In this document: piece by piece, positions 3,678-63,478 of the stretch
Layout of the letters: each line of letters starts with the position of its first letter
Numbering within the stretch: position 1 is the first letter of the stretch
NCBI GenBank assembly: GCA_037893245.1
Contig: JBAIAA010000598.1
Location: 352,081 to 416,080 of the forward strand
Origin: Crossaster papposus
Taxonomy: Eukaryota > Echinodermata > Asteroidea > Velatida > Solasteridae
Length of the DNA stretch: 64,000 nucleotides
Reading direction: 5' to 3'
Notes under the pieces: model-generated
Told to the model about the DNA's origin: nothing
Seen by the model: only the letters and a program-made list of their open reading frames with translations
Databases searched by the model: none
Position numbers and translations under genes: made by a program

Positions 3678-3830
3678 AAATAATTACAGAAGAATCATAT
3701 TTATACAATACGTCTGAATCAATCTCTCTTGTCCGATTGGTGGGAATGCACAGTTTCATTGCATGATTGCCCCTTTTGGCCTATCTAACCAATGTTACAG
3801 ATTTGAGCATTGAAAATAATAATTGTATGT

Positions 3831-9199: not shown

Positions 9200-9231
9200 A
9201 GACTGACGAAGGAAAACAGGTGAAGTTTGGC

Positions 9232-25456: not shown

Positions 25457-26674
25457 GTGGGTTAGAAGCCTCACTTGGACAGGGATGTGGCAAATCCAGC
25501 AATGTTTGAATCAATTCTAATTCAGTCTGGGAATCGTGATTTCACTCGGAATCGATTTCGAACATAAACAAAAACCAAACATAAAAGAACCTCAGTTTTT
25601 TATAAAGATGTCATCAGAAGTAACCAGACCTCACCTTTGCGGCACTATCAACAAAAGACGACTGAAAATTGCATCTTGCGACAGGCGGGTCACGTGGAAA
25701 AGAGTGTGGCGCCGGCTGCCTTTGTATTCCACAAATAAAATAGCTCACGTTTAAACAAAAAGACGGCTTTATTATTGTGCTATCAGCTTGATGCACTGCG
25801 TGCTTTTTAAACATTTTAGGATACGTTTCGTTAAAGAATCAGACGTTCTTTGAAGTTGTGTTGGAGTTGGTCAGTCTTTAAAATCATTGCGCAAATACAG
25901 GAATTGCTGCTCGCAGAACTGTAATTGGCTACATCAGAGAATCGATTCCTCGGAAAAAGTGTAATCACGATTCTGATTACGAGTTTGGAATCGATTTTAA
26001 TCAATTCTGGTGTGGAATCACCCAAGCATATAGTCTAGTCCATCACAAATCCCTTGCAAGTCTACCACAAGTTCTCCAGTCCCTATTCAAATTAAAAGCT
26101 GCCCCGCTTCCAGTCACCATACCAAGCTGTTGGAATCTCTCAGTCTCCTAGCCAACTTCAATTAAACATCTTCAATTAGGATAATTAAAGCCATCTAGTG
26201 TCAAATCTAGTAAAACTGTTCAAACTAGCTGGGACAACGGTATTCTCTTGTCATTGGTCATTTCTCTTGTCAGGGATCACGCCCTATTTTATGAAAGAGA
26301 CCGCTTAAAGAGCTGGCTGAGGCCATGAGGGACCTGCCCCTGAAGAAGTCAGTAGATCATAGTGGCCTAGTGATGTCTAGGGGTGGTAAGGGGAGGGTTG
26401 AGTTACTCAGAGGTTACAAACCCCTGTCAGACTGGCCATGAGAGAGAGAAACAGCTCAAGGAGCTGGCTGAGATCATGAGAGAAAGGTCAGTAGATCATA
26501 GTGGCTCAGTAACGGGTAGAAGTAGGAAGGGGCCGAGTCATTTGGATATGGTGAAACGGAGAGGGGGGTGTAAAATCAGATCGTGCAATTAGATCATGTC
26601 TAAGGCTTTAAAAACAAAAGTTTTGATATGCTTTGTTATGCCAATTTAACTGTTTTTATTTATTCATTTATTAG

Positions 26675-26817
26675 TCGCTGGTCCACCAGTACACAGAGGA
26701 TGCCAAGAAGTTCCGGGAGCAGAAGATGAGCCAGATGACCTCGGAGATCGAACGCATCAAGGTGGAGAAGAAGAAACGGAACGAGGAGAGGCGACACAAA
26801 ATGGAGAAAGAAATGAT
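26675..26817 (+). CDS. Coiled-coil gene, exon G' (duplicate)
   Basis: Counterpart of exon G, splice sites ATTAG and GTAAGA preserved, coding sequence unchanged. Confidence 0.7.
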
Positions 26818-27816
26818 GTAAGATGTATTTTGTATTGTTTATTTGAACCTCATCTTTAAGGCACTTGATCTTCAGTAGATCTCTTAACCTTGGTGTAGGT
26901 GTCTGACGATCGATAGTCGGTCACTAACAGTAGCCACTTGCTAGCACCCGCACATACTGTTGAAGCACGAACAGTGACCTCGTGTTGTGAGGCTACAATC
27001 TGAAAATCAGTTGGTGCTTGCCAAATGTCTTGGCACAACTGTTTGTTTTAGCTTTATTTTTTCTTGTTTTGTCACTGGATTTTCAGCGATGGCCTTGTAT
27101 TTGATTTAAGATGGTATTTGGATACAGTATTTGGTTGCAGAGGTTATGTTTCACACGGATAGAGAGCTGGATAGTGCGGCTACATTCTCAATGTATCAAT
27201 ATAAAAGTAGTAGGCTTAATGCCTGTTGGTATCACTTCACAGATGTGCATATGCTTCCAACTGACAACTATATAAACTGCCCAAAAAGGCTTTAGTGTCC
27301 ATCGCGACCATGAGCATCGGACGTTATAATTATCGCATAACCGACTATAAATCTGGGGAGCTTTCGTGTGATTTGGCGCGGTATTAATCAATATTCATAA
27401 ATACCTAGGACAGTTTAGGCATTCCTATTGGTCGAGAGCCCGTCACGTGGCCGGTATTAAACGGACAATAAAGACATGGCTGGAAGTGTTTAAAACCAGC
27501 TGGCAACAAAACAATGTCACGCGATGTCGCATTATACTCGTCCCCAGGGCTTACTTTATTTCCAACTGTACCTCGTCTCTAATATGAAGAGCGGTAGTGT
27601 TGGGCGCGTACATCTCGACACCCTAGGAACAAGGTTGCCAATGGCAGTAATAGTCTGGTTCATAGTGAATACGCTTTATTGCATGTATTGTGTAGAGCGA
27701 CAGAGGCGGAAACATGTCATTTGACATTGCGAAACACCAAAATTGACTTGCGAAAATTTTGGGGGATTTTCAGGGTTTTTTTTGCTGAATTTTACAAAAA
27801 GGTATTTATGAATGAG

Positions 27817-27971
27817 AATAAATGTGTGTTCGGTCGGTATTAATCACTCTGTTTAATACCGCTTGGAGTTTGGGTGCTGATAATTACCCTTGCTTCGGCT
27901 CGGGTAATTATCAGCACCCAGACTCCAGCGGTATTAAACAGTGATTAAAACCTCTCGAACACACATTTATT
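27817..27971. repeat. 155-bp inverted repeat, duplicate copy
   Basis: Copy of 18585-18739 within the segmental duplication. Both arms are retained. Confidence 0.8.
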
Positions 27972-28186
27972 CCCTTATTAGGAAACGTCTCAAATGCTTG
28001 AAACATTTCATTTGGGATCAAAAGATGTTTTGGAGAACGGCAGGGAACACCGCAGATTCCAAGTCATTGGCTGTTCCCATTGGGAACAACGAATCTTCTT
28101 GATAGGAAGATCCAATGTTCCAAACGGAACGTTCCGAAAGAAACAAGAACGTTCTGACTTTTCAGACGTTGTTGTCACTATTACAG

Positions 28187-28343
28187 GACTTTGGAGTCGG
28201 AGCTTGAGATGGACCGCTTCAGAGACGATCACCGTCGGCAGGAACGCGACGAGCAGAGAGCGAGGACTCTGGAGGAGCAGGAGAAAGAGAGACGACTACA
28301 GCAAGAACTGCAGCAGCTGGATGGCAACAAAGAGGCTCAGGCG
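28187..28343 (+). CDS. Coiled-coil gene, exon H' (duplicate)
   Basis: Counterpart of exon H, same acceptor TTACAG and donor GTAAAG, unchanged coding sequence. Confidence 0.7.
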
Positions 28344-28861
28344 GTAAAGGCAGTTGAGCACGTTCAAAAGAGGAATCCATGTAGTTGAAAGAAGAGAGTC
28401 AAGTGTTGATTTTGTGTACACAGTTGGCCCATAGCATTATAATCAACTAAAGTCATTGTGTCATGATAGTGGTTGTTTAATTAACTCTTATCTCTGATGG
28501 TGAAATTTATGTATTAATCACTTTCTGTCGCGCTGTCTGTCGGGTTGTCTTGGTGTGGCTGTCTGTCGGGGTGTTTGTTTGTTTGTTTGTTTGCTAGGAG
28601 GATTATGAAATTTATTTGGGAGGAATGTTAACGAAACTTGGTGGGTCACAAGGATGATTCCTTTATATTTTTAGATTGATCTGTGGGCAGATTAGAAATC
28701 TGGATAACATTTAGGGTGGAAATCTGCACTCTACCGAGTAGCCTTTTTCAAGTTTACTCATGTTATTTCCTTATTTGTGCCTTAGCTCTTGAAAATCGGA
28801 TATAATTTTGACTGCCCCCTCCTAATAGTTTTTAATATAATAACACATTTCGCTCTCACAG

Positions 28862-29078
28862 AAACTATTGAGGGAGCATGAGGAGAACATGAAGCGCTTT
28901 GAGGTCTCGCAACGCCTGGAGCAGGGGCGCAACCAGGAGAAAACGCGAACCCGGCTGGAAGCCAGACGGAGGAAGAAGAGAGCGCAGGAGACGGAGAGGA
29001 TCAAAGGGGATGTGAAGGGACAGGCTGAGGTGGATGAGAGGCGAACCCAGGACTATCTGAATAACATCCAGAGGCCGG
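28862..29078 (+). CDS. Coiled-coil gene, exon I' (duplicate)
   Basis: Counterpart of exon I with the same phase-1 end. In the duplicated gene this would be the set adjacent to the downstream exon J. Confidence 0.7.
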
Positions 29079-29415
29079 GTAAGGTTTTATAGGATGTGAA
29101 CCCTCCAGCCACCCAAGACATTATTATAATGTACTTTTGTACTTTAGCAGTTGCAATGCACTTTAAAAAACATTATATCAACAGAGGGCGCAATTAAGTT
29201 AAGGCTCCAAGTCAAGACAACTCTACTTTCTAGACTGGGGCTGAGATGGTTAGGGGCCGAGTTTACCTGTACCCTGGACAAAGCTATACCATGTATGATC
29301 ACCTAATCTTGCCGAAGAAAACAATCTTTGCGATTAATGTATGATAAAAAGGTACCTTTATGTGCTGACATCGCAGAAATGTGCACAGAAATCTGCAAAG
29401 AAATTAGTCTTGGGC

Positions 29416-29539
29416 TTAACCAGTTTGCGCCGGTTGACATATATACACACACAATTTTTCTGAGATTTAAAACGGATGACAAATAAACACATCCCGAGCA
29501 AAGCCCCAACAAATTGTTTACTATCCACGGATGACATGT
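29416..29539 (+). mobile_element. Left part of the TTAA element interrupted by the LINE (copy 2)
   Basis: Same TTAACCAGTTTGCGCCGG start as at 20184. It matches the first ~120 bp of the uninterrupted relative at 45783, up to TATCCACGGATG. Confidence 0.7.
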
Positions 29540-29849
29540 TTTATTTATTTATTTATTTATTTATTCCATTTCTTTACCCAGGGTGTGCCCAAACAGTTTA
29601 AAACTGGTTTTCATTGGGGCCCTGCATACATCATCAAATAAAATAACAGTACATATTATAAATACAAGGATATTACAGGAATTCTAAACATTAATACTAA
29701 CTCTGATTTACGAGATAGGCGAAAACCCGCCAAATAAAAAAACCTTTTAGGTGAAAAATAAGAAGGGGAAATTCCTATCCGGCTCCACATTATAGTGGCA
29801 ACCAAGTTCTAACTCCGTAGATCAGCGCAATTGGCATAATATCTAACAC

Positions 29850-32769
29850 TCAGATGGCATGTCGGAGTTCTGATTTAAATGTGCTTAATGAGTCCAATGT
29901 TCGCAATTGTTCGGGCAGATTATTCCAAATATTTGCACCACTCACAGCGAAACTTGTGGCGTAGCATTCTTTTTTGGCGAAAGGAACTTTCAGTGCCGTG
30001 TGGGTTGATTGCCTTGTTTCGCGAATTACTGTAAGTGGTTTGAAAATATTTGTCATGTACAAAGGAGTCATTTTGTTGATACTTTTGAAGACAAGAATAG
30101 CCTTTTTTGACTTGACTCTTTTTGAAAAAGGGGTCCAATTAAGACGAGCAAACATATCCTCTGAAGGGGTGAGGAAGGTACATTTAAGGATTATCCGCGC
30201 GGCTCTTTTGAGACATTTGTTTAAAATATTATCGTGAGATATGTACCTTCCTCCCCACACAGTACAACAATACTCTAATGTTGGCATAATTAGACTTACA
30301 AATAGTGTGTGCAAGCTGTGCTGAGGAATACAATCACGGATTCTTCTTATACCTAATTTAGACACCACATTTTTTCTTACGTATTCGACATGTGGGCCCC
30401 AACTTAATGCTTCATCAATAATTACACCCAAACATTTATATGACTTCACATTTTCAATACGACTACCAGCAATGCATACATTTAAATTAACATTAGATAT
30501 TTTCTGCCTAGTACCAATAAGCATGCATTTGGTTTTGGTGGCATTTAAAGCTAGCTTGTTTCTTCCGCACCAGTTGTGAAAACTAGTAAGAGCTGTATTT
30601 AAGCTACTTTCTATTATATTAATGTTGGAGGAGCTACACGTTAATGTTGAGTCATCTGCATACATAAATAAGTTGCAGTTTGGGGCAATACAAAATGGAA
30701 GGTCACTAGTATAAACAATGAATAAAAGTGGACCTAGTATCGACCCCTGTGGAACACCAGTGTTTACGGACAGGACCTTTGATATGGTGCCGCCAATATT
30801 CACAGACTGACTACGTTCACTTAGGTACGACTTAAACCAATTTGTTACAGAAGATGACACGTTCATCCTTTCTAGTTTCTTTAGTAAGATTTCATGATCA
30901 ACACAATCAAATGCTTTACTGAGGTCTATAAACACACTGCCTGTAACTTGTCCATTCTCCATGGCCGCAAAACACTTGTTTGTTAAGTCATGTAGGGTGC
31001 TTTCAGTTGAGTGCAGGGGTCTAAATCCCGACTGGCAACTAGGAATCAGATTGTTTTCATCAAGATATCTATATACCGATGAGTGCACCCATCTTTCTAA
31101 AATCTTAGAGATAATTGGCAGTATAGAAATTGGACGATAGTTACCTGTACTACATTTATCTCCTCCCTTGTGAATTGGTGTTACTAAAGCATGTTTCCAA
31201 TCTTTAGGGTATCGCTCACATCTTATAGACAGGTTAACAATATGAGTTAAAGATTTAATGATATAAGGTGAAGCAATTTTAATCATTTTAACACTAATTC
31301 CATCCGGACCTGTTGCTTTCCCAACCGACATAGATGATATTTGCTTTCGAACAAACTCTTCTGTAATGTTAGGTACTACGCAATCTTCATCAACAGAATC
31401 AAATATAGAGGCGTCAGTATTGTCATCTATTTCAAGTTCACGCAAAGGGTAATTTCCAGCAGTACGCTTGCCGATTGTTGAAAAGTGTTCATTTAATGTA
31501 TCAGCAATGTCGGCGATATTGTCAATATTTTCCCCATTTGGGGAAGTAATCGAATTTGGTACAGTTTTTTGTTTCTTAGGGAGTACCTCCTTCAGAGTTT
31601 TCCACAGCATAGAAGAGTTGCTTTTATTTTCTTCTATGGCGGATGTGTAGTAATTACTCTTTTTACTGCGGATTTTATTAGTAACATTGTTCCGCAGGTT
31701 TTTGTATGAATCCCAATGAATTTGTAAGCCTGTGTGCTTTGCAATTTTGTGTACACGATCGCGCTGCCGCATAAGTTTAAGAATTTCGCTATCGAGCCAC
31801 GGAACTGAGGCACCCCGAATGCGTTTGGTTTTGACTGGCGCATGGAGGTTAATAATACTCATAAATATGGAGTACCATATAGACCATGCATTATCCACAT
31901 CATAACAACCAAAAACATCTTGCCATGGTGCATTACGGAGATCGTCCGTAAATGCATCACTGTCTATATTTTTGAGACATCGAAAATTTATTGAACGACC
32001 TTTCATTTTTGGTGTTTTCCAACTGTGTAGCCCATAAACAAGATAATGATCACTGATTAGGACTGGTAAAATACCACAGTCCTTTATGAGCTCTGGGTGG
32101 GAACTAAAAATGAGATCAATGGTAGTTTTAGTAGATTCAGTGACACGTGTTGGGTCATGTATGAGTTGTGCCATTTGGAACAAACTAAAGCAAGAAATAA
32201 TTGGATTTGATTGCATACTATCGTATTCATCTGAAACATCACAATTAAAGTCCCCAGTTGTAATAATTTCTTTACATTCACACGAGGCCTTATTAAGGAT
32301 ATCACTCAGTTTTCCCATAAATTCGACAGAGCTTGAAGGAGGCCTATAAATAGAACTGATCCACAGGCTGTCTTTGTTTGCACTTAATTTCAACCCATAT
32401 ACACTCGACATCATATATTTCGAGATCTTCACGACGAGAGAACATTAGGGTATCTCGAATGTAAATTGCAACACCGCCACCATGTCGGTTCCTGTCTTTT
32501 CTGACAATAGAATAATTTGGTAGAGTTATTTCGTCATCAGAGATTGAGGCGTCGCAAAAAGTTTCGTTTAGACAGATGATGTCGAATGGATTTTTAGACA
32601 TTACAATCTTAAAATGGTCAAATTTGTTTATGAGGCTTCTTACATTAAGATGGGCGAATGAGAAACCCTCGGAACTTTGATTGCAGATAATACCATCTGT
32701 TATGTCTATTTTAGAACCTTGCCTTGTGGGTTGAGCAGCTCCCTGACCATTTTCAGATGTTGGTTCCAC
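29850..32769 (-). pseudogene. LINE ORF2 copy 2: endonuclease-reverse transcriptase with one frameshift
   Basis: It has the same domains as copy 1. Here the reverse transcriptase is uninterrupted (ISKVLSVNTGVPQGSILG, YADD), but the endonuclease is broken by a net 2-nt loss at about 32358, where RQPVLISSIYRPP becomes RQPV then DQFYL and a stop. The remaining ~835 codons downstream are open. The lesion is absent from copy 1. Confidence 0.9.
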
Positions 32770-34541
32770 TCCTGGCCTCGATAATGTGTCGGGGCGGGTG
32801 CTCTGGTCTGGGATACTGGCTGCCGTCGTTGATTGAGGTTGATTTGGTGCCGTTTCTGATGGGGATGCGGGTAATACTGGTTGGCCATTAGAAAACCCGT
32901 CGGAACATCACGGGTCGCTGTAGTCCGCTTCGTCAGGACATCAGAGTACAAACTCTGACCGAAAGGGGTTTTCTGATGTGGAATGCGACTATCAAAGGTC
33001 TTTGGTGGTCCTTTGATGTGTTGGATAATGTTCGTGGCAAGTAGGCGCACTCCTGCCGAGTCGAGGTGCACACCGTCCGACACAAGGTGGTTTGAGTTTA
33101 TGTTACCGTTGTCAATGAAGCCCCAGTTATTTCGCTTTGCTATGGACTTGAGCAGATTATTGGAATCATCTACTCTCTTGCACTGTGGCACCGTTTGGTT
33201 TTTACGGTGTATGATCGAAGATATTGTCACTGATCTTGGTTGTAGTGACTCGCCGAGGGAGGTGATCTGAGCGGCAATAGTCTCCGGGTTGTCGGATGTG
33301 TTGTTGGTCCCAACATGGAGAATTACCCGAGATACGTCGTGCTTGGTCGACAGCTGTATGACGTGGGGAGCAAGATCTTGGATTTTTGCTCCACGCATGG
33401 TGTGGCACATCACTTTCTTTTGCCTGCTCAATCTCCTGGGCTGAAGCCGTTTTATCATCGAGTCACCGATTAGAAGCACATCTGCACAGTGGTGTTCCGT
33501 TGGTGATTGTTTTACTTTAGGTGCCGGTTTGTCCTTTGCAGTGGTCAGCTTCTTGTGCTTTTTCCGGTATTGATTCAGCTGTTCGTCAAATGCTAAGGAC
33601 ATTTTAGTTTTTGAGGGATGGGGCAAATGGTTTGGGGTTGGGGAGGATCCCTGCTCCTCGGTGTCAGGCTGGCCGTTTAGCTGCAAGACTTCGAAGTACG
33701 TGTCGATCACCAACTCGGCCTCGGTCCGGGAATCACCGGTGCTGGAGTCGGTGATGACGGGATCCTCTGTTGCCAATGCAGCGAAGCGGTTGCTTGTCGG
33801 TACCAGAACCGCTGGGCCGACATCCAATGTACAGTGGCTCGCTGGACTGAGATCCGCTGTACGGTGGCTCGCTGGACTGGCTAGACTTGTGGGCGTCCAT
33901 GGGTGGTTCCGGCTCAGAGCACTCGGCGGGCGTTCTGAATCATCATGGGCTTCACGAGAAGGACTCATCAGCATATCAATGGTAGAATGGAGAGCGTCAC
34001 ATTCCTTCTTCAGGTGGTCTATTGTTTCCCTTTGGGAACAAGAAGATCGAGAAATCTGGTCAGATAGTGTTGCAAATTGGTCTGAAAATTTCTGATCAAG
34101 TAATTTTATGTCATTTTTGACCTGTATGATGGCTTGATAAATGACCTGTGGGGTGGGTTCGGGGACTTGATCGGGGGTTGTGACACCTGTTAAGTCCCGA
34201 TCTGTAGTAATTGTTTGCTTGTAATTTATCTGACAAGCTGAACTAAGACAAGACATGGGAAAAGTGTTCCGATGACCAAAAATATACAGACATAGGTCCT
34301 TGATGTCATCGGATGCTGTTTGATTAGATCTACGGGATTTAAGTGAAAAAACTGTACTTAGCTTTTTTGACGAGTCGCCCGTTTCGTCGCCATCTTGGAC
34401 GTCTTCACGGTACTTCTCCATCGCAGCTTCAAAAATCACAATCCTCGCTTGTAACAATTCATCAATGGTAAAATCACTACTTAGCACTGACCGCAATGAC
34501 ATAGGCGGCGACACTTGGAATTTAGACACGATATCCTGCAT
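32706..34541 (-). CDS. LINE ORF1 protein with SGNH esterase domain, 611 aa
   Basis: I start at MQDIVSKFQVSPP (34541), because the longer open frame to 34724 runs into the flanking TTAA element. The N-terminal third is polar with a short predicted coiled coil (ETIDHLKKECDALHSTID), followed by a Ser/Pro-rich linker. Residues about 356-505 form an SGNH/GDSL hydrolase domain: LLIGDSMIKRL with the nucleophile-position Ser, ILHVGTNNTSDN and VSDGVHLDSAG with Asp-x-x-His. An Arg/Gln-rich tail follows. Esterase-bearing ORF1 is characteristic of CR1-group LINEs, where ORF1 binds RNA (family knowledge). Intact here. Confidence 0.85.
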   Translation of the reverse strand: MQDIVSKFQVSPPMSLRSVLSSDFTIDELLQARIVIFEAAMEKYREDVQDGDETGDSSKKLSTVFSLKSRRSNQTASDDIKDLCLYIFGHRNTFPMSCLSSACQINYKQTITTDRDLTGVTTPDQVPEPTPQVIYQAIIQVKNDIKLLDQKFSDQFATLSDQISRSSCSQRETIDHLKKECDALHSTIDMLMSPSREAHDDSERPPSALSRNHPWTPTSLASPASHRTADLSPASHCTLDVGPAVLVPTSNRFAALATEDPVITDSSTGDSRTEAELVIDTYFEVLQLNGQPDTEEQGSSPTPNHLPHPSKTKMSLAFDEQLNQYRKKHKKLTTAKDKPAPKVKQSPTEHHCADVLLIGDSMIKRLQPRRLSRQKKVMCHTMRGAKIQDLAPHVIQLSTKHDVSRVILHVGTNNTSDNPETIAAQITSLGESLQPRSVTISSIIHRKNQTVPQCKRVDDSNNLLKSIAKRNNWGFIDNGNINSNHLVSDGVHLDSAGVRLLATNIIQHIKGPPKTFDSRIPHQKTPFGQSLYSDVLTKRTTATRDVPTGFLMANQYYPHPHQKRHQINLNQRRQPVSQTRAPAPTHYRGQEWNQHLKMVRELLNPQGKVLK

Positions 34542-34565
34542 CTTAGTGTCGAGTTTTGATAGAAA

Positions 34566-35030
34566 ACTCGTCGGGCACAGCAGTTTAATTCCGCGGAGGA
34601 CGTGTATATACGCTGCCAAGGTTTTCTTGGTTGTTGCAGTTGAAGTGTATTTACGCCAAAAGCTACCCGCTAGCGCTGCGGAGGATGGGTATACACAACA
34701 TGTATGCATACACGCGGTGCACATGAGTATATGTCAATGTTGCCAAGCATGCTTCGTGGACGTGCTATATTGTGGTATCACACTTTAGTGATTAGGCCTA
34801 TTCGACACCCTAGTTCCATTGTTTCCGTTGAATTTATACAGCCGAGGATTATCAGCTGCGTCTAGTAATTTCTTGACGTTTAAATTGTTAAACTATTGTT
34901 CCTTAGTCTCCTTTAAAATATTTGAAAGGGTGCTTTTCAGCTGGGCTTGCAAATATTTGTATTATTATCGCATACAATGTCCCCGGCCCTGGGTGTAGTT
35001 CCACATAGATGACGTATATACGCCTGTCGG
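34566..35030 (+). mobile_element. Right part of the TTAA element split by the LINE
   Basis: It aligns by eye with 45903-46250: GGAGGACGTGTATATACGC, TTGCAGTTGAAGTGTAT, GTGATTAGGCCTATTC, ATTATCAGCTGCGTC and TTAGTCTCCTTT-AAAT. The similarity fades after about 34945. The element's far end is not recognised. Confidence 0.6.
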
Positions 35031-41601: not shown

Positions 41602-41843
41602 TTAACCAGTTCGCGCCGGGATTATTTTAACATCGCCGAGCCGACGGGCGGGATTATTTTTAACGAAACTCGATCTGAAGCGGGTTCAGGCTGATAGTGC
41701 CGGGAAGCACACCCACGCATTTCCGGCCTTGCGCGCTGCTGACATACATTTGCGAACTTGAACTTGGCGTGTTTATGCGTCATCCGTTTTGAATTTGGGG
41801 AAATTTTTGCGTTTATACACGTCATTCGGCGCGAACTGGTTAA
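41602..41843 (-). mobile_element. TTAA MITE, 242 bp
   Basis: TTAACCAGTTCGCGCCGG at the left and GGCGCGAACTGGTTAA at the right, with TTAA at both borders. The interior is nearly the same as at 50159-50404 (shared GGGATTATTTTAACATCGCC and CGAACTTGAACTTGGCGTG). Confidence 0.85.
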
Positions 41844-45782: not shown

Positions 45783-46260
45783 CTAACCAGTTCGCGTCAG
45801 ATGACGTACACACAAAGTTTTTGCGGAATTCAAAACGGATGATGGACAAACACGTCATGAACATCCCATACAAAATTGTGTACTATCCACGGATGTCGCG
45901 TTAACCCGTCAGGCATGGCGGTTTTATTCAGTGGAGGACGTATACACGCTATGGAAGTTTGCTTGATTGTTGCAGTTGAGGTGTATACACGGCTTACGTT
46001 AATGACAGTGACACATGTTGTGGTGGACATGTATACACACTAACGTTGTCATGCCATGCCGCATTGACTTGATATCATGGCATCATGCACGCTTCAGTGA
46101 TTAGGCCTATTCAAAACCCTACTTCCATTGTCTCCATTAATGCCTACAGCTGAGGGATTATCAGCTGCGTCAACTAAGTTCTAGACATACATATTCCCCC
46201 ACCATTGTTCGTTAGTCTCCTTTGAAATTTGTGAAAGGGTCCTTTAATTTTCAGCTATGA
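45783..46260 (+). mobile_element. Long relative of the TTAA family, uninterrupted
   Basis: It starts CTAACCAGTTCGCGTCAG and shares the opening ~120 bp with 20184-20307 and the following ~350 bp with 34566-34945. It shows the pre-insertion order across the LINE site (ATCCACGGATGTCGCGTTAA then CCCGTCAGGCATGG). The right end is not recognised. Confidence 0.6.
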
Positions 46261-50027: not shown

Positions 50028-51768
50028 AGATTTCTTCAGATTTAGCAACTGACACATAGTTGCGAGATGCTTTCTGAGCTTTGTACATCTGATTGTGAAT
50101 GGCTGTTGTAGCTTAGGTTCAGCAGATGCTGCTAACTTGGCAACAATGCCAGACGCCCTTAACCAGGTCACGCCGGGATTATTTTAACATCGCCGAGCCG
50201 AAGGGCGGGATTATTTTTAACGGTCGAAACTCGATCCGAAGCGGGTTCAGGCTGATAGTGCCGGGAAGCACACCCACGCATTTCCGGCCTTGCTCGCTGC
50301 TGACATACATTTCCGAACTTGAACTTGGCGTGTTTATGCTTCATCCGTTTTGAATTGGGGGAAATCTTTGCGTTTATATACGTCATCTGGCGCGAACTGG
50401 TTAAAGGAGTGGTTGAATTCTCACAAAGTCGAGAAAACAGGAAACTTTTACCCTTGTTTTCTTTAGCCAACATATCCAAACTTTCTTTCATGTTAACTGG
50501 CATGAGAATTGGAACTCCACGCCCTCGCTTTCCCCGCACCATAAGCAATGTCAGCCTTTTTAGAGAAACCTTTTCGGGTGGAGTTAGCTTTCGAGAATTT
50601 CATCATGAACAGCTCTCTTGGATTGTACTTGCTGATTATAGTTGTAAACCTCAATACTTTCATATTTTGGTCTCCTATTGTACAAAACAACCTGTGTAAG
50701 TGTTGGCCAGCTCCTTGTATGTTGTAGCCGTGCGTTCACCTTTGACTTGATTTTGTGTTCACTTCTTCTGAAGAAATGCATTGAATGCAACACAATCCTT
50801 GGTTAAGGGCAACAGTTTTGGAGCTTTCCAATTTTGTTGTTGCATCTGGCGCAGTGCTGATGATGTCACCCGAGCCTTCCACTCAGTTTCCCTGAGATGC
50901 ATGAAATCATCCACTTTAAGAATGGCAGCACGGTTTTGTTCCTTTATGTAGATGTTCTTCATGATTAGTGAAAGATCCGTCGGTGCAAAGCCCACGAGTA
51001 TGCTTGGTGTTTTTGTGTTTCTTTCTGATAGCCTGACATGATCAAAGTACTGTTAATGACTGCATCAAAAGACTTGGGCTTCACCAGATCTCTGGCCTGT
51101 ATAATAGTAGAGTCGAACCCTCTTGCATGATTAAGGATTATACCAAGTGTTCGCATTTTTTTCTCTGGCCTTGTCTTGTCTTCTGTTCGAGTTTGTTGTG
51201 TTCATCACATTTTCCCCACTCGTGGAATGTCCTGATCATTTCTTACAGTTAATCGTATCTTGTCTTTTTGCACAGAATGCAGAACCTCTTTCAATTCCCT
51301 GGATACGTCATGTTTTAGGGGAATAAGCATCCGCCTGGTCTTGCAGTGTTTACTGTAAGGAAGGTGTTTATGAATTACCATGCAGCAGTTTTTTTTGTTT
51401 ACCCATATAAGGTACTCTCTTATGAAAATATCCAAAGCAGTCGGCACAGGGAATGTAGTCATGGATTGATTTTTTTTTATTTCCTTCCGTTGGTCTTTTG
51501 CGGACAATCGGGTCCTTAGCCTCTCCTTAAAAATCATGTTGTTGTGTTCATGGTTGCCCAGGTTACGAATATGCAGCCAACTCTGCCGCTTCATTCCTTT
51601 TTCCTCCTTTGAGATTGCCAAAACTTCACAAATCAATGTTTCCTGACAGTGGTGCCTACGGCAATGCCTCCGGGTGAGTTTCTGCCGAGGTTTTCCACAG
51701 AACAAACAATAACTGCACTTGCCTGGATCTCCAGAATCTGTGACATAAGTGCCATCAGGGTCACCCAT
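50028..51768 (-). pseudogene. Crypton-like tyrosine-recombinase element, degenerate, with MITE inserted
   Basis: Read from 51768: a C-x2-C finger (YCLFCGKPRQKLTRRH...H), then IRNLGNHEHNNMIFKE. From about 51150: RTLGIILNHARGFDST, KPKSFDAVINST and GYQKETQKHQAYSWALHR. Then EWKARVTSSALRQM, NWKAPKLLPLTKD, TLTQVVLYNRRPKYESIEV, VRGKRGRGVPILMP and SFLFSRLCENSTTPL. After the MITE comes RLRKH-like KLRKHLATMCQLLNLKK (Arg-x-x-His box of tyrosine recombinases). This order of blocks matches a family of animal proteins with an N-terminal Cys/His finger and a C-terminal tyrosine recombinase, which I take to be Crypton-type (family knowledge, medium certainty). At least four frame breaks make it non-functional. 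Confidence 0.65.
50159..50404 (-). mobile_element. TTAA MITE, 246 bp, inside the Crypton-like pseudogene
   Basis: CTTAACCAGGTCACGCCGGG at the left and GGCGCGAACTGGTTAA at the right, TTAA on both sides. The related Crypton fragment on the plus strand at 60737 has a single TTAA in the same context (ACTCCTTTAAGGGCGTC), i.e. the unoccupied site. Confidence 0.92.
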
Positions 51769-52079
51769 GTCTTCTTGATATCTTCATCCCCCTGTTCTCC
51801 ATCACTAAGGATTTCATTATCATTTATGTTCCTGGTGTCCATTTCATCAATCGCTGCTGCTGTCAGCATTCCTGCTGTTGTCATTGCTTGTGCTGTCATG
51901 ACTACTTAACATATATCAACTATCATCACCGCATCATCTTCATTAACTTCAACTTCATCAAAGGGATCTGCTTATTACTATGCTGCCAGATGTACAAGGT
52001 TGGGAATCTTTTTCTGTGCAGCCTGTTGAAAAGGTTTGGTAATAGGCATCATGGCAGCCAGATGACTGTGCACCACGGT
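51769..52079. other. Spacer between Crypton-like element and minisatellite
   Basis: The minus-strand frame remains partly open to 51899, but no recombinase motif is seen. The first poor repeat units appear from about 52050. Confidence 0.4.
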
Positions 52080-53815
52080 GTCCAGATGTACGCAGTTGTG
52101 ACTGTGCATCACGGTGGCCAGATGTACTCGGTTTGGACTCTGCATTATGGTGGCCAGATGTACTAGGTTAGGACTCTGCATCATGGAGGTTAGATGTATT
52201 CAGTTGGGACTGTGCAAAGTGGCCAGATGTACTCAGTTGGGACTCTGCATCATATGGTGGCTAGATGTACCCAGTTGGGACACTGCATCATGGTGGCCAG
52301 ATTTATCCGGTTGGGACTGTGCATCATAGTGGCCAGATGTACTCACGTGGTGCGTTATGGTGGCCAGATGTACTCAGTTGGGACTGTGCATCATGGTGGT
52401 CAGATTTAGGCTGGGACTCTGCACCACAGTGGTCATATACACTCAGTTGGGACTCTGCATCATGGAGGCTAGAGGTATTCAGTTGGGACTCTGCATCATG
52501 ATGGCCAGATGTACCCAGAGTTGTATGACTCAAGTCCAGGACTCGGACTCGAGTCCGTCTCGAGTCATAATTTTGGTGACTCGGACTTGACTCGAGTCAC
52601 GTCGGCAAAAGACTCGGACTCGGACTCGACTACCATGACTCGGACTTGACCTCGAGGACTTATGACTCGAGTCACGTATTTTCACCAACAATACCTTTTT
52701 ATTTTTTTTGTAAATATTAAAAACAATTCCAATGATCCGATCGTCATGCACATTGGGGAATATTAACGTTTAGCACACGAAATAAGCAGTTATACTGATG
52801 TTGCAAGTAATAGTGTTCGTGATTAATGTGTTGCTATGCCCATGTAATGTACAGCGCACGTACATGTACATGTGTATGTTCAATACGCATAATAACACTG
52901 GGATATATTTCTGTAAAAGCATTATTGTGCACGACACCAATATTAACGCTGGTATTCTGTCAACCTTAACACCATAGCCACTGCTTGATGCATATTACTA
53001 GGGAAATAGGAATTCGTCTCCGGAATCCGAATGACGGCTTTAGCTGGCTGCGGCTATATCGCTACCTCTTTTTAATGTTAAAACATAGGCGGCTTACGCG
53101 CTGATCTAGCCATAGACGCAACCGAAGCTGACCATAGTCTGGCATGTCTGGTACCTGTAAAAACACCGCCTGACTGAGATGGCTGTGTGTTGTTTGCGAT
53201 CAATAGTGATCCAGTCATCTAAGTGAACTGGTCAAAGTAGTTTAACTATTTAATTATTTAAACTTAAGTGACCCGTGACTCGGACTCGGACCAAGTGACT
53301 CGGGACTCGGACTCGACATAGGTGACTCGACTACAACACTGGATGTACCCGGTTGGGACTGTGCATCGACCATGCATGGCAAGATGTACATGTACTCAGC
53401 TGGGCTTGTGCATCATGGTGGCCAGATGTACCCGGTTGGGACTGTGCAACATGGTGGCCAGATGTACTCAGTTGGGACTGTGCAGCATGGTGGCCAGATG
53501 TCTCCAGTTGGGACTTTTCATCATGGAGGCCGGATGTACTCGGTTGGGACTGTGCAGCATGGTGGCCAGATTTACCCGGTTAGGACTGGGCATTATCATG
53601 GTGGCCAGATGTAGGCTGGGACTCTGCACCACAGTGGTCATATGTACTCAGTTGGGACTCTGCATCATGGAGGCTGCAGTTGGGACTCTGCATCACGGTG
53701 GCCAGATGTATACCGCTCAGTTTGGACTCATGGTGGCCAGATCGTTGTACTCTGATGGGGAATCTCCTGTTAGCCAGATGTACTCAATTGAGACTCGGCA
53801 TCATGTAGCCATTAG
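52080..53815 (+). repeat. 36-bp minisatellite, first array, split by a hAT element
   Basis: Units such as GTTGGGACTGTGCATCATGG, TGGCCAGATGTACTCA fill 52080-52515 and 53342-53815 in one orientation. The unit length is a multiple of three, so long HHGGQMYSVGT-like frames exist in several frames on both strands. I regard none as a gene. Confidence 0.88.
52516..53341. mobile_element. hAT-type non-autonomous element, 826 bp, 8-bp TSD
   Basis: Ends CAGAGTTGTATGACTCAAGT and (inverted) CAGTGTTGTAGTCGAGTCAC. Dense GACTCGGACTCGAGTC words sit in both termini. The duplication GATGTACC is perfect at 52508-52515 and 53342-53349. No ORF in the interior. It lies inside a minisatellite unit. Confidence 0.88.
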
Positions 53816-53929
53816 CTTCTACAGTTTCACTATCTACATGTACCCGGGTTTGTTCGAACCCACACTGGTCAATGATGGTTGGACTAGGCAGGACCAGCTA
53901 ATGATCGAGGTTGGGCGCATATTTCTTCT

Positions 53930-54003
53930 TTGAAGAAATGCATTGAATGCAACACAATCCTTGGTTAAGGGCATCAGTTTTGGAGCTTTCCAATTTTGTT
54001 TTG
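53930..54003 (-). pseudogene. Small Crypton-like fragment
   Basis: Minus-strand frame QNWKAPKLMPLTKDCVAFNA-FLQRR is almost identical to part of the element at 50028-51768. The upstream side (53789-53890) is shared with 55801-55890, linking it to the second array. Confidence 0.75.
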
Positions 54004-54782
54004 AGAGAACAGCCAGCTCCCAGGACCTCTCCCTTTTGTACATCTAATACAAGTTTAGCTGCCTAAAGATTTGGTCTGTCAAGGACTTGGTATTAAAGTG
54101 AGATTTGATGATTTGAATAATCTTAGGATTTCCTTGTTTTGTAATGTGTGCTTATGCGTTTTACTTGTTGTCTTGAACCAATTATGAGGTTTTAGGGCAA
54201 AACTTTCTTTGTTAAGTTTTGGAATGTACAGCCCAAGACTAGTAGACGCTTATGTTTTATTCAAATCATGAGCTGGATTACCGGAACTTTACTGTGAATT
54301 ATGAATGTTAACATTCATATTTCACATGGCTTGATAACTATATTCCACTGATTTTCCTGGCACTGCTTTTGTAAATGTGGTGCATTGCGTGTACATTTCA
54401 GTGAACCGTTTGCGATAGAAGCTTTGAAGAAAAGTCAACCAACAAGAGTATTAATATGCAATTTCCATTTTAGTGTTAATTCTCTACTAAAATCAAGTGT
54501 ATTTTTTGTCGAGCTCAATTTGTATCGTTTTTGAAGTAGTCTTATTTTATTCCATCCTGATGTGTAGCTATAGGCAATGTAGGGAGGGTTACGAGAAAAC
54601 TAGTTTACACAATTTAGATAGTTGCAATTTCGACCATTTTTGCCAGACTAGTCACCAGATTTGCCCAATTTTTATCACTTTCAAAGATCATGACACACAT
54701 TTTGAGAACACAGATTTGATTTGCAATGTGTAATGACTCTGTTCATAACACTCAAAACATAATTGAGAAAATATTTTGTGCC
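54004..54782. other. Gene-free spacer between the minisatellite arrays
   Basis: AT-rich, no repeat or exon recognised. Confidence 0.5.
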
Positions 54783-55790
54783 CAGATGTACATTTGTACT
54801 CGTTGAGACTCTGCATCATGGAGGCTAGATGTATTCAGTTGGGAATCTGCACCACGGTGGCCAGATATACGCAGTTGTGACTGTGCATCATGGTGGTCAG
54901 ATGTACTCGGTTGGGACTCTGCACCACGGTGTCCAGATGTATGCAGTTGTGACTGTGCACCATGGTGGTCAGATGTACTCGGTTGGGACTCTGCACCACG
55001 GTGTCCAGATGTATGCAGTTGTGACTGCATCATGGTGGTCAGATGTACTCGGTTGGGACTCTGCACCACGGTGTCCAGATGTACGCAGTTGTGACTGTGC
55101 ATCATGGTGGTCAGATGTACTCGGTTGGGACTCTGCACCACGGTGTCCAGATGTATGCAGTTGTGACTGTGCATCATGGTGGTCAGATGTACTCGGTTGG
55201 GACTCTGCACCACGGTGTCCAGATGTACGCAGTTGTGATTGTGCATCATGGTGGTCAGATGTACGCAGTTGTGACTGTGCATCATGGTGGTCAGATGTAC
55301 TCGGTTGGGACTCTGCACCACGGTGTCCAGATGTACGGAGTTGTTACTGTGCATCATGGTGGTCAGATGTACTCGGTTGGGACTCTGCACCACGGTGTCC
55401 AGATGTATGCAGTTGTGATTGTGCATCATGGTGGTCAGATGTACGCAGTTGTGACTGTGCATCATGGTGGTCAGATGTACTCGGTTGGGACTCTGCACCA
55501 CGGTGGCCGGATATACTCAGTTGGGATTGTGCATCATGACGGCCAGGTGAGCTCAGTTGGTAGTCTGCATCAAGGTGGCCGGGTGTACCCGGTTGGGACT
55601 GTGCAGCATGGTGGCCAGATGTACTCGGTTGGGACTGTGCATCATGGTGGCCATATGTACTCAGTTGGGACTCTGCATCATGGAGGCCAGATGTACCTGG
55701 TTACCTGGTTGGGAGTGTGCATCATGGTGGCCAGATGTACCCAGTTGGGACTCTTCATCATGGTGGCCAGATAGATGTACTCTGATGGGA
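54783..55790 (+). repeat. 36-bp minisatellite, second array with 72-bp higher-order period
   Basis: Two alternating variants, ...GGTCAGATGTACTCGGTTGG GACTCTGCACCACGGTG and ...TCCAGATGTAYGCAGTTGTG ACTGTGCATCATGGTG, give a dimeric 72-bp unit repeated from about 54890 to 55500. The edges return to simple 36-bp units. Confidence 0.9.
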
Positions 55791-55866
55791 CTCTTCTGAG
55801 ACTCGGCATCATGTAGCCATTAGCTCCTACAGTTTCACTATCTACATGTACCCCGGTATATTCGAA

Positions 55867-56110
55867 CCCACACTGGTCAATGATGGTTTGTTCTGTGGAA
55901 AACCTCAGCAGAAACTCACCTGGCATTGCAGTAGGCACCACTGTCAGGAAACATTGGTTTGTGAAGTTTTGGCAATCCCAAAGGAGGAAAAAAGAATGAA
56001 GCGGCAGAGTTGGCTGCATATTCGTAACCTGGGCAACCATGAACCCAACAACATGGTTTTCAAAGGAGAGGCTAAGGACCTGATTGTCCTCAAAAGACTA
56101 ACAGAAGGAA
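55867..56110 (+). pseudogene. Crypton-like element, N-terminal fragment
   Basis: Frame LFCGKPQQKLTWH, then CEVLAIPKEEKRMKRQSWLH and IRNLGNHEPNNMVFKGEAK matches the N-terminal finger region of the minus-strand element at 50028-51768. The frame stays open to 56196, but recombinase motifs are absent here; the matching C-terminal region reappears at 60390-60785, beyond the LINE. The two may be halves of one element separated by insertion and loss. Confidence 0.6.
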
Positions 56111-56120
56111 ATAATAAACT

Positions 56121-56320
56121 AGAAATGTGTTTGTGGACAAACACAGAGCTGTTTCGAGTGTCTAAAATTACTTTCAATTTGTGTGTGGTGGTCTAAGTAT
56201 GTACCCAGTCTGAAGTTGATCGGATTTACCCAAGTGACAAAGATATTATTGGTTAAAAAAATGTGTACAAATCCTATGGGGAAAACTACACCTTTAATGT
56301 GACGTCACATGCAGGCGATG
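56121..56320 (+). repeat. TGACGTCA-bearing module, first copy
   Basis: GAAATGTGTTTGTGGACAAA, CACAG-AGCTGTTTCGAGTG, GTGTGTGGTGGTCTAAGT, then AAACTACACCTTTAATG followed by TGACGTCACATG. The same order recurs at 60845. Confidence 0.75.
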
Positions 56321-56974
56321 ATGTCACCATCACCTACTGGAAAGCAGCGTTTTCTCTGATTGTCGTATAAATTTAACGCATTAAAGTTACATGGTGTCCA
56401 CTTCTCAGTTGAGTCATTGAGTCAAGTCAAAGAAATTTATTTATTTTTTATTTAAGTTAATGTGTTCCTCCTATGTTGAAGTAAAAAATTTAAAAAAAGA
56501 CTTTGTTTTTATCGGCATATTAAAAGGTGGACACCGTAACTAACTACCGTTAAGCTAGACTACTAAAGTTTTACCATTTAACCAGTGATTAAATACCCTT
56601 AGTTTTCAAGATCTGATCATGCATGTTAACATTAGTTACAAAAATGACGTGGACACCATAAATTTTAAATCAAGGCAAACATTTCAAGTGTGTCAAGTTT
56701 ATTATCACTTGCTCAACTAAAGCCTTCAAGGTACTTGCCTTAACAGTGGCCTGTTTTCATTGCATGGTTCTCAAACAGGTTACAAAAAATACACCAACCT
56801 GCCAACATGGCTGTCTACTGAAACCAATGTTAGTGTCCACTAAACCAACGTTAACAAAAAAGGTCGCCACTCGCAGCAAGTTTTCCTACTAAAACATGGT
56901 AAAATGTTGAACTTAATGTTGATACGTACCTTTTTTGTTGTTATTTACATTTTGATCTGGTAGAATTTAAGGAA

Positions 56975-56977
<3 letters not shown>
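56321..56977. other. Gene-free stretch
   Basis: Several GTGGACACC words. Nothing else supportable. Confidence 0.4.
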
Positions 56978-57008
<31 letters not shown>

Positions 57009-59235
57009 TAGTACATTTATTTCAACGCTGCCATTAGCACAGAATAGAAGAAAACAGAATTCACTTTAACAAAGAGTAAACAATTAAATGATCTAATTAT
57101 AATTATATACAGAAGTATAAAATTATAATCAAATTAATGACAACATTTAGGTATAAGGTGAAGCGAATTGCTTTTGTACCCTAACCTATTGACAGACAAT
57201 CTATACGGTCAACACAAAGGACAAATGACATTATACGTAAACAAACAATATAACAAAACACACACTAGAAAACACAAGCTGGTGAGAGACACATAAATTA
57301 ATTTCATAAATTATAACTAATTATATAGATGTGAATCAAGAAGATAGAATTTCAGCTTTTTAACAAATATAGAGAGGGAGTTTGATGATTTTAGGGACTC
57401 GTCTAAGCTATTCCAATATAAAGTGCCACGTTTAAAAACACTATTTTTACACAACTCTGTTCGGCTAAACTGGACATAAAAATTGTTCTTGGCAGTACTT
57501 CGGGTATTATACAAATGAATGTCAGAGGTTAACATGAAGAATGAATTAAAACAACTTGGTAATACATTGGTTTTAAATTTATACATCAATTTGCCTAAAT
57601 TAAAATAGTACAGGTCATAAAACTGTAAAAGACTCAGGTTTGTAAATAAAGGAAGGGAATGATCACGATAGCCAGCTTTTGATACTATTCGGACTGCTCG
57701 TTTCTGCAAGGTAAACAGTTTGTTGTATTTAGATGAAGAACCCCCCCAAGTCAAGATTGAATAATTTAAATATGGCAAAACAAAAGAATTATACAGAGTT
57801 AACAAGATTCTACTGGGCAGGTAATATTTTAGACGGTTCATTATGCCAACATTTTTAGATATTTTTGTCGCTATGTCATCAATATGGTTTCTCCAGGTGA
57901 GATGCTCATCAATAGTTATTCCTAGGAATTTAGTAGTTGTTACTTGGTTTAGCCTTGATTCATTTAAAATTAGAGGAACAGATTGAGAATATTTATACTG
58001 ATGGGCACAGAAAATCATATAGTTAGATTTCAATAAGTTAAGACATAATTTGTTTGCTAAGAGCCAAGTGCTAATTGTTTTAAGTTCAACATTGAGGTTT
58101 CTAACAGCAGTGTCAACATTTTGGTGAGTATATAGTAAACTTGTGTCATCAGCAAATAAGCAAAATGAAATAATGTCGGAGGTGTTACAAATATCATTTA
58201 TATAAAGAATAAAAAATAGAGGACCTAACACAGAACCTTGTGGTACTCCACAGACAATATCACGATCAGTTGAGTTTACAGAATTATAAGACACATACTG
58301 CTTTCTGTTAGTCAGATAACTTTTAAATAGGTCCAAGGCAATCCCACGCACCCCGTAATGTTCCATCTTACTTATTAATATTTCATGATTGACTGTGTCA
58401 AATGCTTTAGATAAGTCAAGGAATATGCCAATTGAAAATTTATTATGATCGATCGCATTACATATTTTACTGAGAACATATGATGTTGATAATTCAGTTG
58501 ACCGGTTTTGTCTGAAGCCAAATTGTGCCTCCGAAAGAATATCATTCTTGTTTATAAAAGATATTAACCTAATGTATATAAGCCTTTCAAATAACTTGGA
58601 GAATGTCGACAGAACTGAAATTGGTCTATAATTAGTAATATCATGTCTACAACCTTTTTTGTAGATTGGTATAACTTGGGCTATTTTTAAGCCATCGGGG
58701 AAATACTCCTGCTGTTAGACATTTATTAAAAATAATAGCTAAAGGTTTTGCTAACGAATACCTTGCCTGTTTTATTACAAAAGAATTCAAAGCGTCGAAA
58801 CCAGGGGCCTTGCCAGAAGGAATTTTGTTAATATTGTCCACAATCTCCTCTTGGGTAATAGGTGACAAGAAGAATGAATCCGAACATCGGGTATTTAAAA
58901 ATGAATGAAAAGAGGTGTTACATAATGGTAGTCCACTAGAAAGACTGCTGCCAATATTAACAAAATAGTTGTTAAATGAATCAGCAATTTCGGTGTCGTT
59001 CGTAATGTTAATGCCATCATGGTTAAAATAGGAGCTACTTTTTTGTTTACGCTTATTTAAAAGAGAATTAATTACATTCCACGTACCTTTTATATTATTT
59101 TTTACTTCATTGAATTTTTTATATAGATAATTCTTTTTGGATAATTTAATCAGAAAGTTAAGTTTATTTTTAAAGCTAGTATAAGTAGATTTATTCCAAC
59201 ATGTTTGATCAAAACTTACGTTAGTTACAATAAGA
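56978..59235 (-). mobile_element. LINE, 5'-truncated, with 29-nt poly(A) tail
   Basis: On the minus strand: the C-terminal part of ORF2, a ~310-bp 3' UTR and a poly(A) tail (29 T at 56978-57006). The endonuclease and ORF1 are missing. The 5' limit near 59235 is approximate. The tail type and sequence distinguish it from the (AAAT)n LINE at 29540. Confidence 0.85.
57317..59230 (-). pseudogene. LINE ORF2 fragment: reverse transcriptase with one frameshift
   Basis: The N-terminal part has KKNYLYKKFNEVKNN and PSGKAPGFDALNSFVIKQA. An extra C near 58698 shifts the frame (GVFP|RWLK instead of DGLK). In the other frame the sequence continues IPIYKKGCRHDITNYRPISV, EAQFGFRQNRST, FLDLSKAFDTVNHEI, CGVPQGSVLGPLFF and the catalytic FADD, then the typical C-terminal TLQKRAVRIVSKAGYRDHS and LYNTRSTAKNNFY. 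CR1/Jockey-superfamily reverse transcriptase (family knowledge). Confidence 0.85.
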
Positions 59236-60389
59236 CGCGAAACAGAATGCAGTGGACACGACGCGTAAATTAGCAAATAAGTGACCTTCAGGTCATCGAC
59301 ACAGGGTACTTTTCATGTGTACTGGCCAACTCAGGATTCTGTTGATTACCAGTTAAATTGCGACAACATTTAACGTACAAGTGGACACGAACATAAATGA
59401 GTGATCGATGTGTGGATTTTTTTCATCCTTATATTAATGGGGGATGTACAGACATTTTACACGATGATTATGCAGCTAATTCAGAAAACAATTGCTTAGT
59501 TTGGCAAGAATGAGGTTTAAAAAAAACAATCTGGCTTTTTGAACATCATATGATGTGGTGAACACGACGTGTAACTTTTGGAACACGCAGATCACAGCGT
59601 TCATGTGCGTATTTTTTTTGTGGGCCAGTATATTTACTTACTCAAGTAATATGCACAAAGTAATGAAAATAAATAAGGGATATTAAAGTCTTTGATTTAA
59701 TGAAATTTTGATGAAATTTTTTTTAATCTGTGTCCCGTTTTTAGATGCCATTTTGATGCTTGTAAACGTGAATTTAAAACGAAATATCCTGTATTCACAC
59801 ATTATTTATCTCTTAAACATATGTACATGATGTACAATATTATCTAAAATAAAAAAATGATTGCAAATAGTAATATATGAGAAAGTCAAGATTGTGTTTG
59901 CATAATGAAAGATAGTCAGTATTGTGTCCTTACACTTATGAACCTGACTATAAGCCAGAGTGAAATACAACAACAATTTTTTAAGATGGCCACTCCAGGA
60001 AAAACCCTTAGTTTACGGATGATCAAAAGAGCCAACGACCTGCATGACAATAAAAGCTGGAGAGATATTAACAACAAGACACTCACAGTGAAAGCAAAGA
60101 TGAACAAGAAGGAACAGGAACAAAAACGTTAAGATCAACATAAATCAGGCACTGCAAGATTGATAAGTTGTTTTCCATCACCAAATCACATAAAGCTTGG
60201 TTGCTTTAAAAAAATTCCCCTCAATATGACTGCACTGTTGATTGCTACAAAACCTCATCATCATGAAATTCAGTTGCATCATGGAGGAATAAGAAGGAAT
60301 CTCCATGGTTGCATTGTGTAAATCTCTACTGGGTATGCAATTGTACAATGTCATACGCGTGGCCATTGGTAATCAGCAAAAAGGTTAAC
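59236..60389. other. AT-rich DNA with an unplaced 75-aa ORF
   Basis: The ORF at 59905-60132 (+) is Lys/Gln rich toward its end (KAKMNKKEQEQKR). I see no family motif, and its position between Crypton-like pieces may be coincidence. Repeated GTGGACACGACG words occur at 59253-59270 and, varied, at 59560. Confidence 0.3.
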
Positions 60390-60785
60390 GCAGATGGAAA
60401 ACTCACGGCTAAAACATACAAGGAGCTGGCCAAGGTGACACTTACACAGGTTGTTTTGTACAATAGAAGACCAAATATATGAAAGTATTGAGGTTGACAA
60501 CTATAATCAGCAAGTACAATCCAAGAGAGCTGTTCATGATGAAATTCTCGAAAGCTAACTCCACCCGAAAAGGTTTCTCTAAAAAGGCTGACATTGCTTA
60601 TGGTGCGGGGAAAGCGAGGGCGTGGAGTTCCAATTCTCATGCCAGTTAACATGAAAGAAAGTGTAGATATGTTGGCTAAAAAAAAACAAGGGTAAAAAGT
60701 TCCTGTTTTCTCGACTTTGTGAGAATTCAACCACTCCTTTAAGGGCGTCTGACATTGTTGCCGAGTTAGCAGCATCTGCTGAACA
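60390..60785 (+). pseudogene. Crypton-like element, recombinase fragment (plus strand)
   Basis: Nearly the same DNA as the inverse of 50410-50790: ACACTTACACAGGTTGTTTT, then GTTCATGATGAAATTCTCGA, then GGTGCGGGGAAAGCGAGGGC and KFLFSRLCENSTTPLRASDI with VAELAASAEQ. Frames are broken several times (extra bases at 60680 and 60475). It preserves the empty TTAA site at about 60738-60742. Confidence 0.75.
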
Positions 60786-63240: not shown

Positions 63241-63478
63241 TTAACCAGTTAGCGTCGGATGACGTGTATACACGCAAAGTTTTTCCGGAATTCAAAACGG
63301 ATGAGGATGAACACGTCACGAGCAAGGCCGGAAATATCTGTCAGCGACTGGCTCGCAGCGAGCAAGGCCAGAAATATCAGGTGTGCTACCCACATATGCC
63401 GACTCGAACCCTCAAGGTTTGTGAAAAACAATCCTGGGTCTGGTCAATGTCAAAATAATCCTGGCGTGAACTGGTTGA
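63241..63478 (+). mobile_element. TTAA MITE, 238 bp
   Basis: TTAACCAGTTAGCGTCGG at the left and CGTGAACTGGTTGA at the right (right border TTGA, one change from TTAA). Family words GGATGACGTGTATACACGC and GAGCAAGGCCGGAAAT are present. Confidence 0.8.

Follow-up and report, generated by a model that had tools for sequence, protein, structure and literature searches.

Short piggyBac derivatives that accompany a full-length element have been described in coral and in Daphnia. The CMITEs of Acropora and their autonomous partner AmiPB1 resemble the family described here: they are TTAA-flanked piggyBac MITEs whose partner shares their TIR, and an occupied/empty allele pair has been demonstrated there too (PMC2872659). 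They differ in their length of ~100 bp, in their CC[C/T]T tips and in showing only weak similarity to the partner inside the TIR (PMC2872659). Pokey, likewise a piggyBac, is accompanied at TTAA by MITEs derived from it through deletion (mPok), and some copies are inserted in the TTAA flanking another copy (PMC3849761). Unlike the present family, mPok is reported as 90-110 copies of ~750 bp and is known from a site in the 28S rRNA gene (PMC3849761).

The solved transposase closest by sequence to the one described below is that of piggyBat from Myotis lucifugus (structure 9c0f, E=3e-80), followed by that of Trichoplusia ni piggyBac (6x67, E=1.2e-33). The T. ni element shares with ours the TTAA target, the DDD catalytic domain, the C-terminal cysteine-rich domain and a palindromic internal repeat near the tip; it is more distant by sequence, and its TIR tip differs from that of our MITE and parent. 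The left-end sites of piggyBat are reported to bind transposase dimers, a two-site left end being optimal: a left end cut to two sites gives an ~8.7-fold rise in activity, and shortening of the right end ~2-fold (PMC11707139). The same report cites the rice Stowaway MITE as the one case reported before of longer ends restricting activity (PMC11707139).

Here we follow a MITE family of Crossaster papposus from one stretch of 64,000 nucleotides (the window) to a full-length piggyBac element in the same genome. The family is new and very abundant, while the kind of element is ordinary and already known. A search of titles and abstract openings with limited terms returned nothing on this MITE family or on a piggyBac end with eight sites, and the opening bases of the TIR, sought in the context of piggyBac MITEs and again on limited terms, gave no match.

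Filled and unfilled target sites in the window

The window holds a MITE with both a filled and an unfilled copy of its target, as an earlier note on this DNA had claimed: two TTAAs enclose the MITE at 50 kb, and one stands in the paralogous sequence at 60.7 kb (Table 1). The filled site reads TTAA-CCAGGTCACGCCGGG...CTGGCGCGAACTGG-TTAA; the inverted ends of the element are CCAGGTCACGCCGG and CCAGTTCGCGCCAG, and its TIR is CCAGTTCGCGCCGG, with TTAA at each edge. The empty site reads ACTCCT-TTAA-GGGCGTC. When the two flanks of the MITE are joined with one TTAA, they align with the host-repeat copy at 60.7 kb over 106 bp, in line with the comparison that the earlier note had proposed, and the long arm of the host repeat (50401-50736 vs 60742-60400) shows 95.3% identity across 343 alignment columns. 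A Pfam scan of two ORFs of this repeat gave no match at E≤0.001, and the Crypton identity given to it earlier is not confirmed.

Table 1 Copies, long forms and target sites of the MITE family in the window
Feature	Position	Strand	Remarks
349-bp variant, TTAA both sides	3329-3677	+	left 160 bp 94% identical to consensus
Long-form left end, second copy of that at 29416	20184-20308	+	inside 9.24-kb tandem duplication
Long-form left end	29416-29540	+	parent positions 1-125, then LINE-like sequence
Probable continuation of the 29416 long form past LINE-like sequence	34565-35021	+	parent position 126 onward
234-bp MITE, TTAA both sides	41602-41843	-	4.1% from family consensus
Long-form (parent-like) fragment	45783-46245	+	left end = parent positions 2-211, several phased sites
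MITE, TTAA both sides	50159-50404	-	element 50163-50400, 238 bp; family left end at 50404
Single TTAA, empty paralogous site	60739-60742		within host repeat 60400-60784
Old MITE copy, 21% diverged	63241-63478	+	flanks TTAA/TTGA; of the phased sites, site 1 alone scores

The pair had been taken as proof that TTAA is duplicated on insertion. The count of one TTAA against two stands, but the pair does not give the direction of the event, because precise piggyBac excision would leave an identical empty site. Footprint-free repair after piggyBac excision has been reported as possible (PMC7351741); reading the single TTAA at 60739 as an excision site would nevertheless require an extra event for which the sequence gives no call, and we consider this improbable next to a site that was never filled. 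A second empty site came from a scan in which the flanks of 44 TIR pairs, some of them duplicates through overlapping loci and some sister-family, were joined and compared with the sequence gathered for the analysis. Two of the 44 gave junction-spanning matches: the MITE at 50159 and a copy at locus L013, the latter against an unfilled paralogue on contig C1, with TCAA at the junction and 124 bp aligned.

TIR matches at ≤3 mismatches number 11 in the window, vs 1.9 expected, and none of 100 shuffles reaches 11. The further copies listed in the earlier note are real at 3329, 41602 and 63241, and those at 20184 and 45783 are long forms; two flanks had to be corrected, 45783 being preceded by CTAA and 63241 lying between TTAA and TTGA, each one base from TTAA. 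The variant at 3329 has a diverged right TIR and a third site-like match at element position 291. The window has four short MITEs and three long-form loci, of which two belong to one duplication: the left ends at 20184 and 29416 represent a single long form present twice, and 45783 is a separate long form whose second block (46090-46245) matches a long form at another locus, L078. The duplication is in tandem (14483-23721 and 23715-32948), spans 9.24 kb at 99.8% identity and carries LINE-like reverse transcriptase ORFs, recognised by eye, together with the long-form left end. At 29416-35021 a long-form piggyBac derivative has apparently been split by a LINE-like insertion; the break lies in phased site 3 and separates parent positions 125 and 126.

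A full-length piggyBac element shares the ends of the MITE

A full-length relative lies on contig C222 (243113-246893; reverse-complement positions 371-4151 of a contiguous stretch of that contig). With both TTAAs included it is 3,781 bp long, begins TTAACCAGTTCGCGCCGGATGACG and ends CCGGCGCGAACTGGTTAA, and carries the exact MITE TIR at both ends. Its gene (C222:244402-245994) is an open ORF of 547 aa. The protein matches PF13843 (E=2.4e-84) and has a C-terminal cysteine-rich (zinc) domain matching PF13842 (E=5.5e-7). Its DDD triad (D221, D300 and D405, counted by hand) aligns with positions 268, 346 and 447 of 6x67. The search that the earlier note had advised, for a full-length relative encoding a DDE transposase, leads to this element, and the guess of a piggyBac origin is borne out by its PF13843 and PF13842 domains. 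A second copy, on contig C502, resembles it in its ends but has a TGA in frame. The transposase searches scored the best 116 of 1336 and the best 79 of 1306 candidates; both autonomous relatives found among these best-scored candidates are piggyBac, and an autonomous relative with another enzyme, which the earlier note had named as a refutation, did not turn up there.

The left 76-78 bp of the parent are 90.8-91.0% identical to three of the window MITEs and 93% identical to the family consensus, and the fourth window MITE is 85% identical over 95 bp. At the right end, 60-61 bp are 81.7-86.9% identical to two window MITEs, the near-consensus copies retaining the last 60 bp of the parent. The middle of the MITE (~positions 95-182) matches nothing in the parent. 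The short element is a MITE in the usual sense: it is non-coding, has TIRs, is homogeneous in size and high in copy number, and has ends (left 76 bp, right 60 bp) in common with a full-length element of the genome. Judged from its sequence, that 547-aa element is an autonomous-looking parent. We put at roughly 0.93 the probability that the MITE is a non-autonomous piggyBac, derived from the C222 element or a close relative and mobilised in trans by its transposase. As the identity of the left ends is only ~91-93%, the MITE may have come directly from a closer relative, unfound or extinct.

The tip of the MITE and of its parent, CCAGTT, departs from the CC[C/T]T that is usual in piggyBac (PMC2872659), a common but non-defining feature, and also from the CACTA, CCCTC, CCCTT and CCCAT reported for members (PMC10813416); the earlier note had rightly found this TIR unfamiliar. 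With CACTA and CCCAT among the members, a CCAG tip does not exclude membership. Further marks of the superfamily are present, namely TTAA target site duplication (two empty sites, one with TCAA), the PF13843 transposase, the DDD triad and the PF13842 domain that most members have, though not all. TTAA alone would not suffice for the call, because it is the target of Kolobok elements as well, which have been connected with MITEs of high copy number (PMC6004289). A Kolobok-type MITE would suit this target and abundance as well as a tip that is not CC[C/T]T, but Kolobok TIRs are reported to begin with AG/RR (PMC6004289), not CCAG, and the transposase of the C222 element, which shares its TIR and ends with the MITE, is a piggyBac enzyme with PF13843. 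We rejected a Kolobok origin once the parent transposase had been read, and regard it as hardly credible. The link to the parent settles a very abundant CCAGTT/TTAA family as piggyBac despite its atypical TIR tip.

Other piggyBac families of the genome

A sister piggyBac family has a similar TIR, CCANTTSGCGCCGG, which differs from that of the MITE at 1-2 of 14 positions. The sister element is 3,718 bp long, encodes 549 aa and has TIRs CCACTTGGCGCCGG/CCATTTCGCGCCGG with TTAA on both sides. That sister and parent share this class of TIR places the class within piggyBac in two families. At least 11 full-length copies have 100% (rounded) protein identity, and three copies compared are 99.95-99.97% identical in DNA; from this likeness the sister family was probably active recently. 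Its derivatives include 274-bp forms, alike by eye in three that were fetched, and mid-size forms with both ends.

The close TIRs and the many near-identical full-length copies raise the question of whether the sister transposase, now or formerly, has been the main one to mobilise the MITE. We find this unlikely: the MITE consensus has no match inside the sister element at E≤1e-10, the site TGACGTATATACACG has none there at ≤3 mismatches, and the sister family has 274-bp derivatives of its own. The C222 element or a close relative is retained as the probable source of the transposase.

At L046:426-640 and at L061 a sister piggyBac is inserted in the internal TTAA of a MITE of the present family. 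A sister-family derivative at L074 has the right-end type of TIR on both ends, perhaps from gene conversion or recombination between ends. Two tandem MITEs at L033:3348-3836 share one TTAA and lie beside the end of another piggyBac element, an arrangement that we read as serial insertion at flanking TTAAs.

Other piggyBac genes were considered as parents. A 505-aa family was rejected on CCCTTTC-type TIR pairs at 13 of 15 fetched loci, none being found at the other two, and an abundant 503-aa family was rejected alongside it, the TIR evidence coming from the 505-aa loci only. Among the best 116 of 1336 PF13843 candidates, these 503- and 505-aa genes form tandem arrays with a period of 11-12 kb (C863, C430, C336, C669, C592 and C80). 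An rRNA search of four 505-aa loci, with ~285-380 bp of outside flank per side, gave no match; the same loci gave only microRNA-family matches below gathering scores. For a relative on C826, whose protein is 61% identical, no convincing TIR pair was found.

Target sites and copy number

The TIR-pair scan gave 32 pairs, two of them repeated through overlapping loci (L003/L004), and thus 30 distinct pairs; three of its 30 loci (L019, L025 and L029) gave none. TTAA stands on both sides of 27 of the 30 distinct pairs, and the other three are one base off on one side (TTAT, TTGA, TTGA). The 27 genome copies had been sought with a pattern that included the near-side TTAA; on the unselected far side, TTAA is present in 25 of these 27. 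Within the window, two of three pairs have TTAA on both sides, and the copy at 3329, also with both, fell outside the scan, its right TIR being too diverged. All four non-TTAA flanks seen (CTAA at 45783, TTGA at 63241, TTAT at L009 and TTGA at L027) are one base away from TTAA, and no exceptions of the kind on which the earlier note would have dropped its claim appeared among the copies searched.

The family is abundant, as had been supposed from its copies in the window. TTAA followed by the 14-base TIR, at ≤2 mismatches, occurs at 59,629 ends in the 1.02-Gb genome, vs 6 for the reversed control, a figure that includes long-form ends and some sister-family ends; if both ends of each copy were found, the family has about 30,000 copies. 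A stricter pattern of TIR and MITE body, with two sites, has 6,132 matches (control 0), and a strict three-site pattern has 5. The ratio of these two counts is overstated, since exact matching loses old long forms; the three-site pattern misses long forms present in the window itself. A looser pattern for site 3 finds 578 matches at ≤3 mismatches in 27 bases (control 0). The fairer comparison is of these 578 with the 59,629 ends (18 bases, ≤2 mismatches), two patterns that differ in length and stringency. MITE length is 234 bp in 17 of the 30 distinct pairs and 148-240 bp in the others. Among 31 aligned copies, divergence from the consensus is 3.7-10.7% in 25, 15-21% in three and >30% in three.

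Phased sites at the ends and the spread of the short form

The parent left end presents eight palindrome-like sites ~42 bp apart, and the right end three. Matches to CGGNTGACGTRTATACACGTC start at 16, 58, 113, 155, 198, 240, 282 and 323 on the left (spacings 42, 55, 42, 43, 42, 42 and 41) and at 3477, 3519 and 3559 on the right. In 500 dinucleotide shuffles the first 400 bp gave a mean of 0.2 sites and a maximum of 3, against the observed 8; the site consensus was drawn from the parent sites, and the count, unlike the regular spacing, is partly so by construction. All eight left sites recur in the C502 copy, where the first is weaker. The near-consensus MITEs of the window (41602 and 50159) keep only sites 16 and 58. 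Among 28 MITE copies, 22 have a spacing of 42 between sites 1 and 2 and four a spacing of 41-49; in two it was not found.

This architecture recalls piggyBat, in which regular left-end sites, each a short G-rich motif with a palindrome, lie 44 bp apart. The right-end G motifs of piggyBat are reported at bp 12-15 and 44-48; the MITE has CCGGGA at 11 and GCGGGA at 43. The two systems differ in TIR sequence and in number of sites, piggyBat having three on the left. At its right end piggyBat has, in addition, two motifs in opposite orientation; the third motif of the MITE, GCGGGT at 75, is a direct one.

By what is known of piggyBac and piggyBat biochemistry, transposase dimers would bind the terminal motif together with the adjoining palindrome-like site, the bound ends would then be synapsed by the transposase, and the MITE would be excised via TTAA hairpins and joined to a new TTAA. 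By analogy with piggyBat, the MITE would have lost inner sites at both ends, which suggests this loss as a reason for its spread over the long form. We tentatively propose that the parent may be self-restrained by its array of eight left and three right sites, the MITE being a deletion that released it from inhibition while keeping the optimal two-site left end. If true, the success of the MITE would be explained by its ends, and piggyBac would have its own parallel to Stowaway in rice; Stowaway itself depends on a mariner-type transposase and a TA target, unlike the piggyBac MITE here. The genome would then hold a natural experiment, with a two-site short form in tens of thousands and long forms bearing site 3 in hundreds.

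We lean, however, towards small size, age and chance (a founder effect) as the source of the high copy number. Any internal deletion removes inner sites, and the long forms differ from the MITE in size (777-850 bp vs 234-238) and in age. Two sites are not universal among the short copies, in view of the third site-like match at 3329 and the single site at 63241. Conservation across 28 of the 31 aligned copies, three having been dropped for >30% divergence, is 0.934 at site 1, 0.944 at site 2, 0.913 in the body and 0.876 in the spacer between the sites; the sites exceed the body by a little and the spacer by a clear margin, a weak signal that does not decide the matter. What speaks against size, age and chance is that transposase-less long forms with inner sites do exist and are far rarer by the counts made: L077 (777 bp) has many sites and a mutated right flank (TTAA/TGAA-like ends), and L078 (850 bp) has many sites and TTAA on both sides. 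The 578 site-3 matches fit a release from inhibition, and they fit effects of size, age and founding too. The eight-site array and its two-site remnant offer, through the piggyBat-based prediction, a concrete test of why MITEs outnumber their parents.

Other features of the window and assembly

The window has a GC content of ~42%. A block of long repeats, ~77-87% alike to each other, occupies 52063-55888, and a GC-rich open frame of 1,156 aa at 9202-12672 has zinc-knuckle-like and zinc-finger-like motifs by eye. In the mitochondrial COX1 (C1841), 6 of 7 AAA codons stand opposite Asn of a mammalian COX1, all 13 TGA codons are read as Trp, and several of the 21 ATA codons stand opposite Ile, a pattern that corresponds to the echinoderm/flatworm code (NCBI table 9). 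Close similarity to the mammalian protein and the GC content of the window would favour an echinoderm. Elsewhere in the assembly, contig C8 (L080), >5.2 Mb long, carries cytochrome oxidase genes without TGA codons (open frame of 682 aa) and is possibly bacterial.
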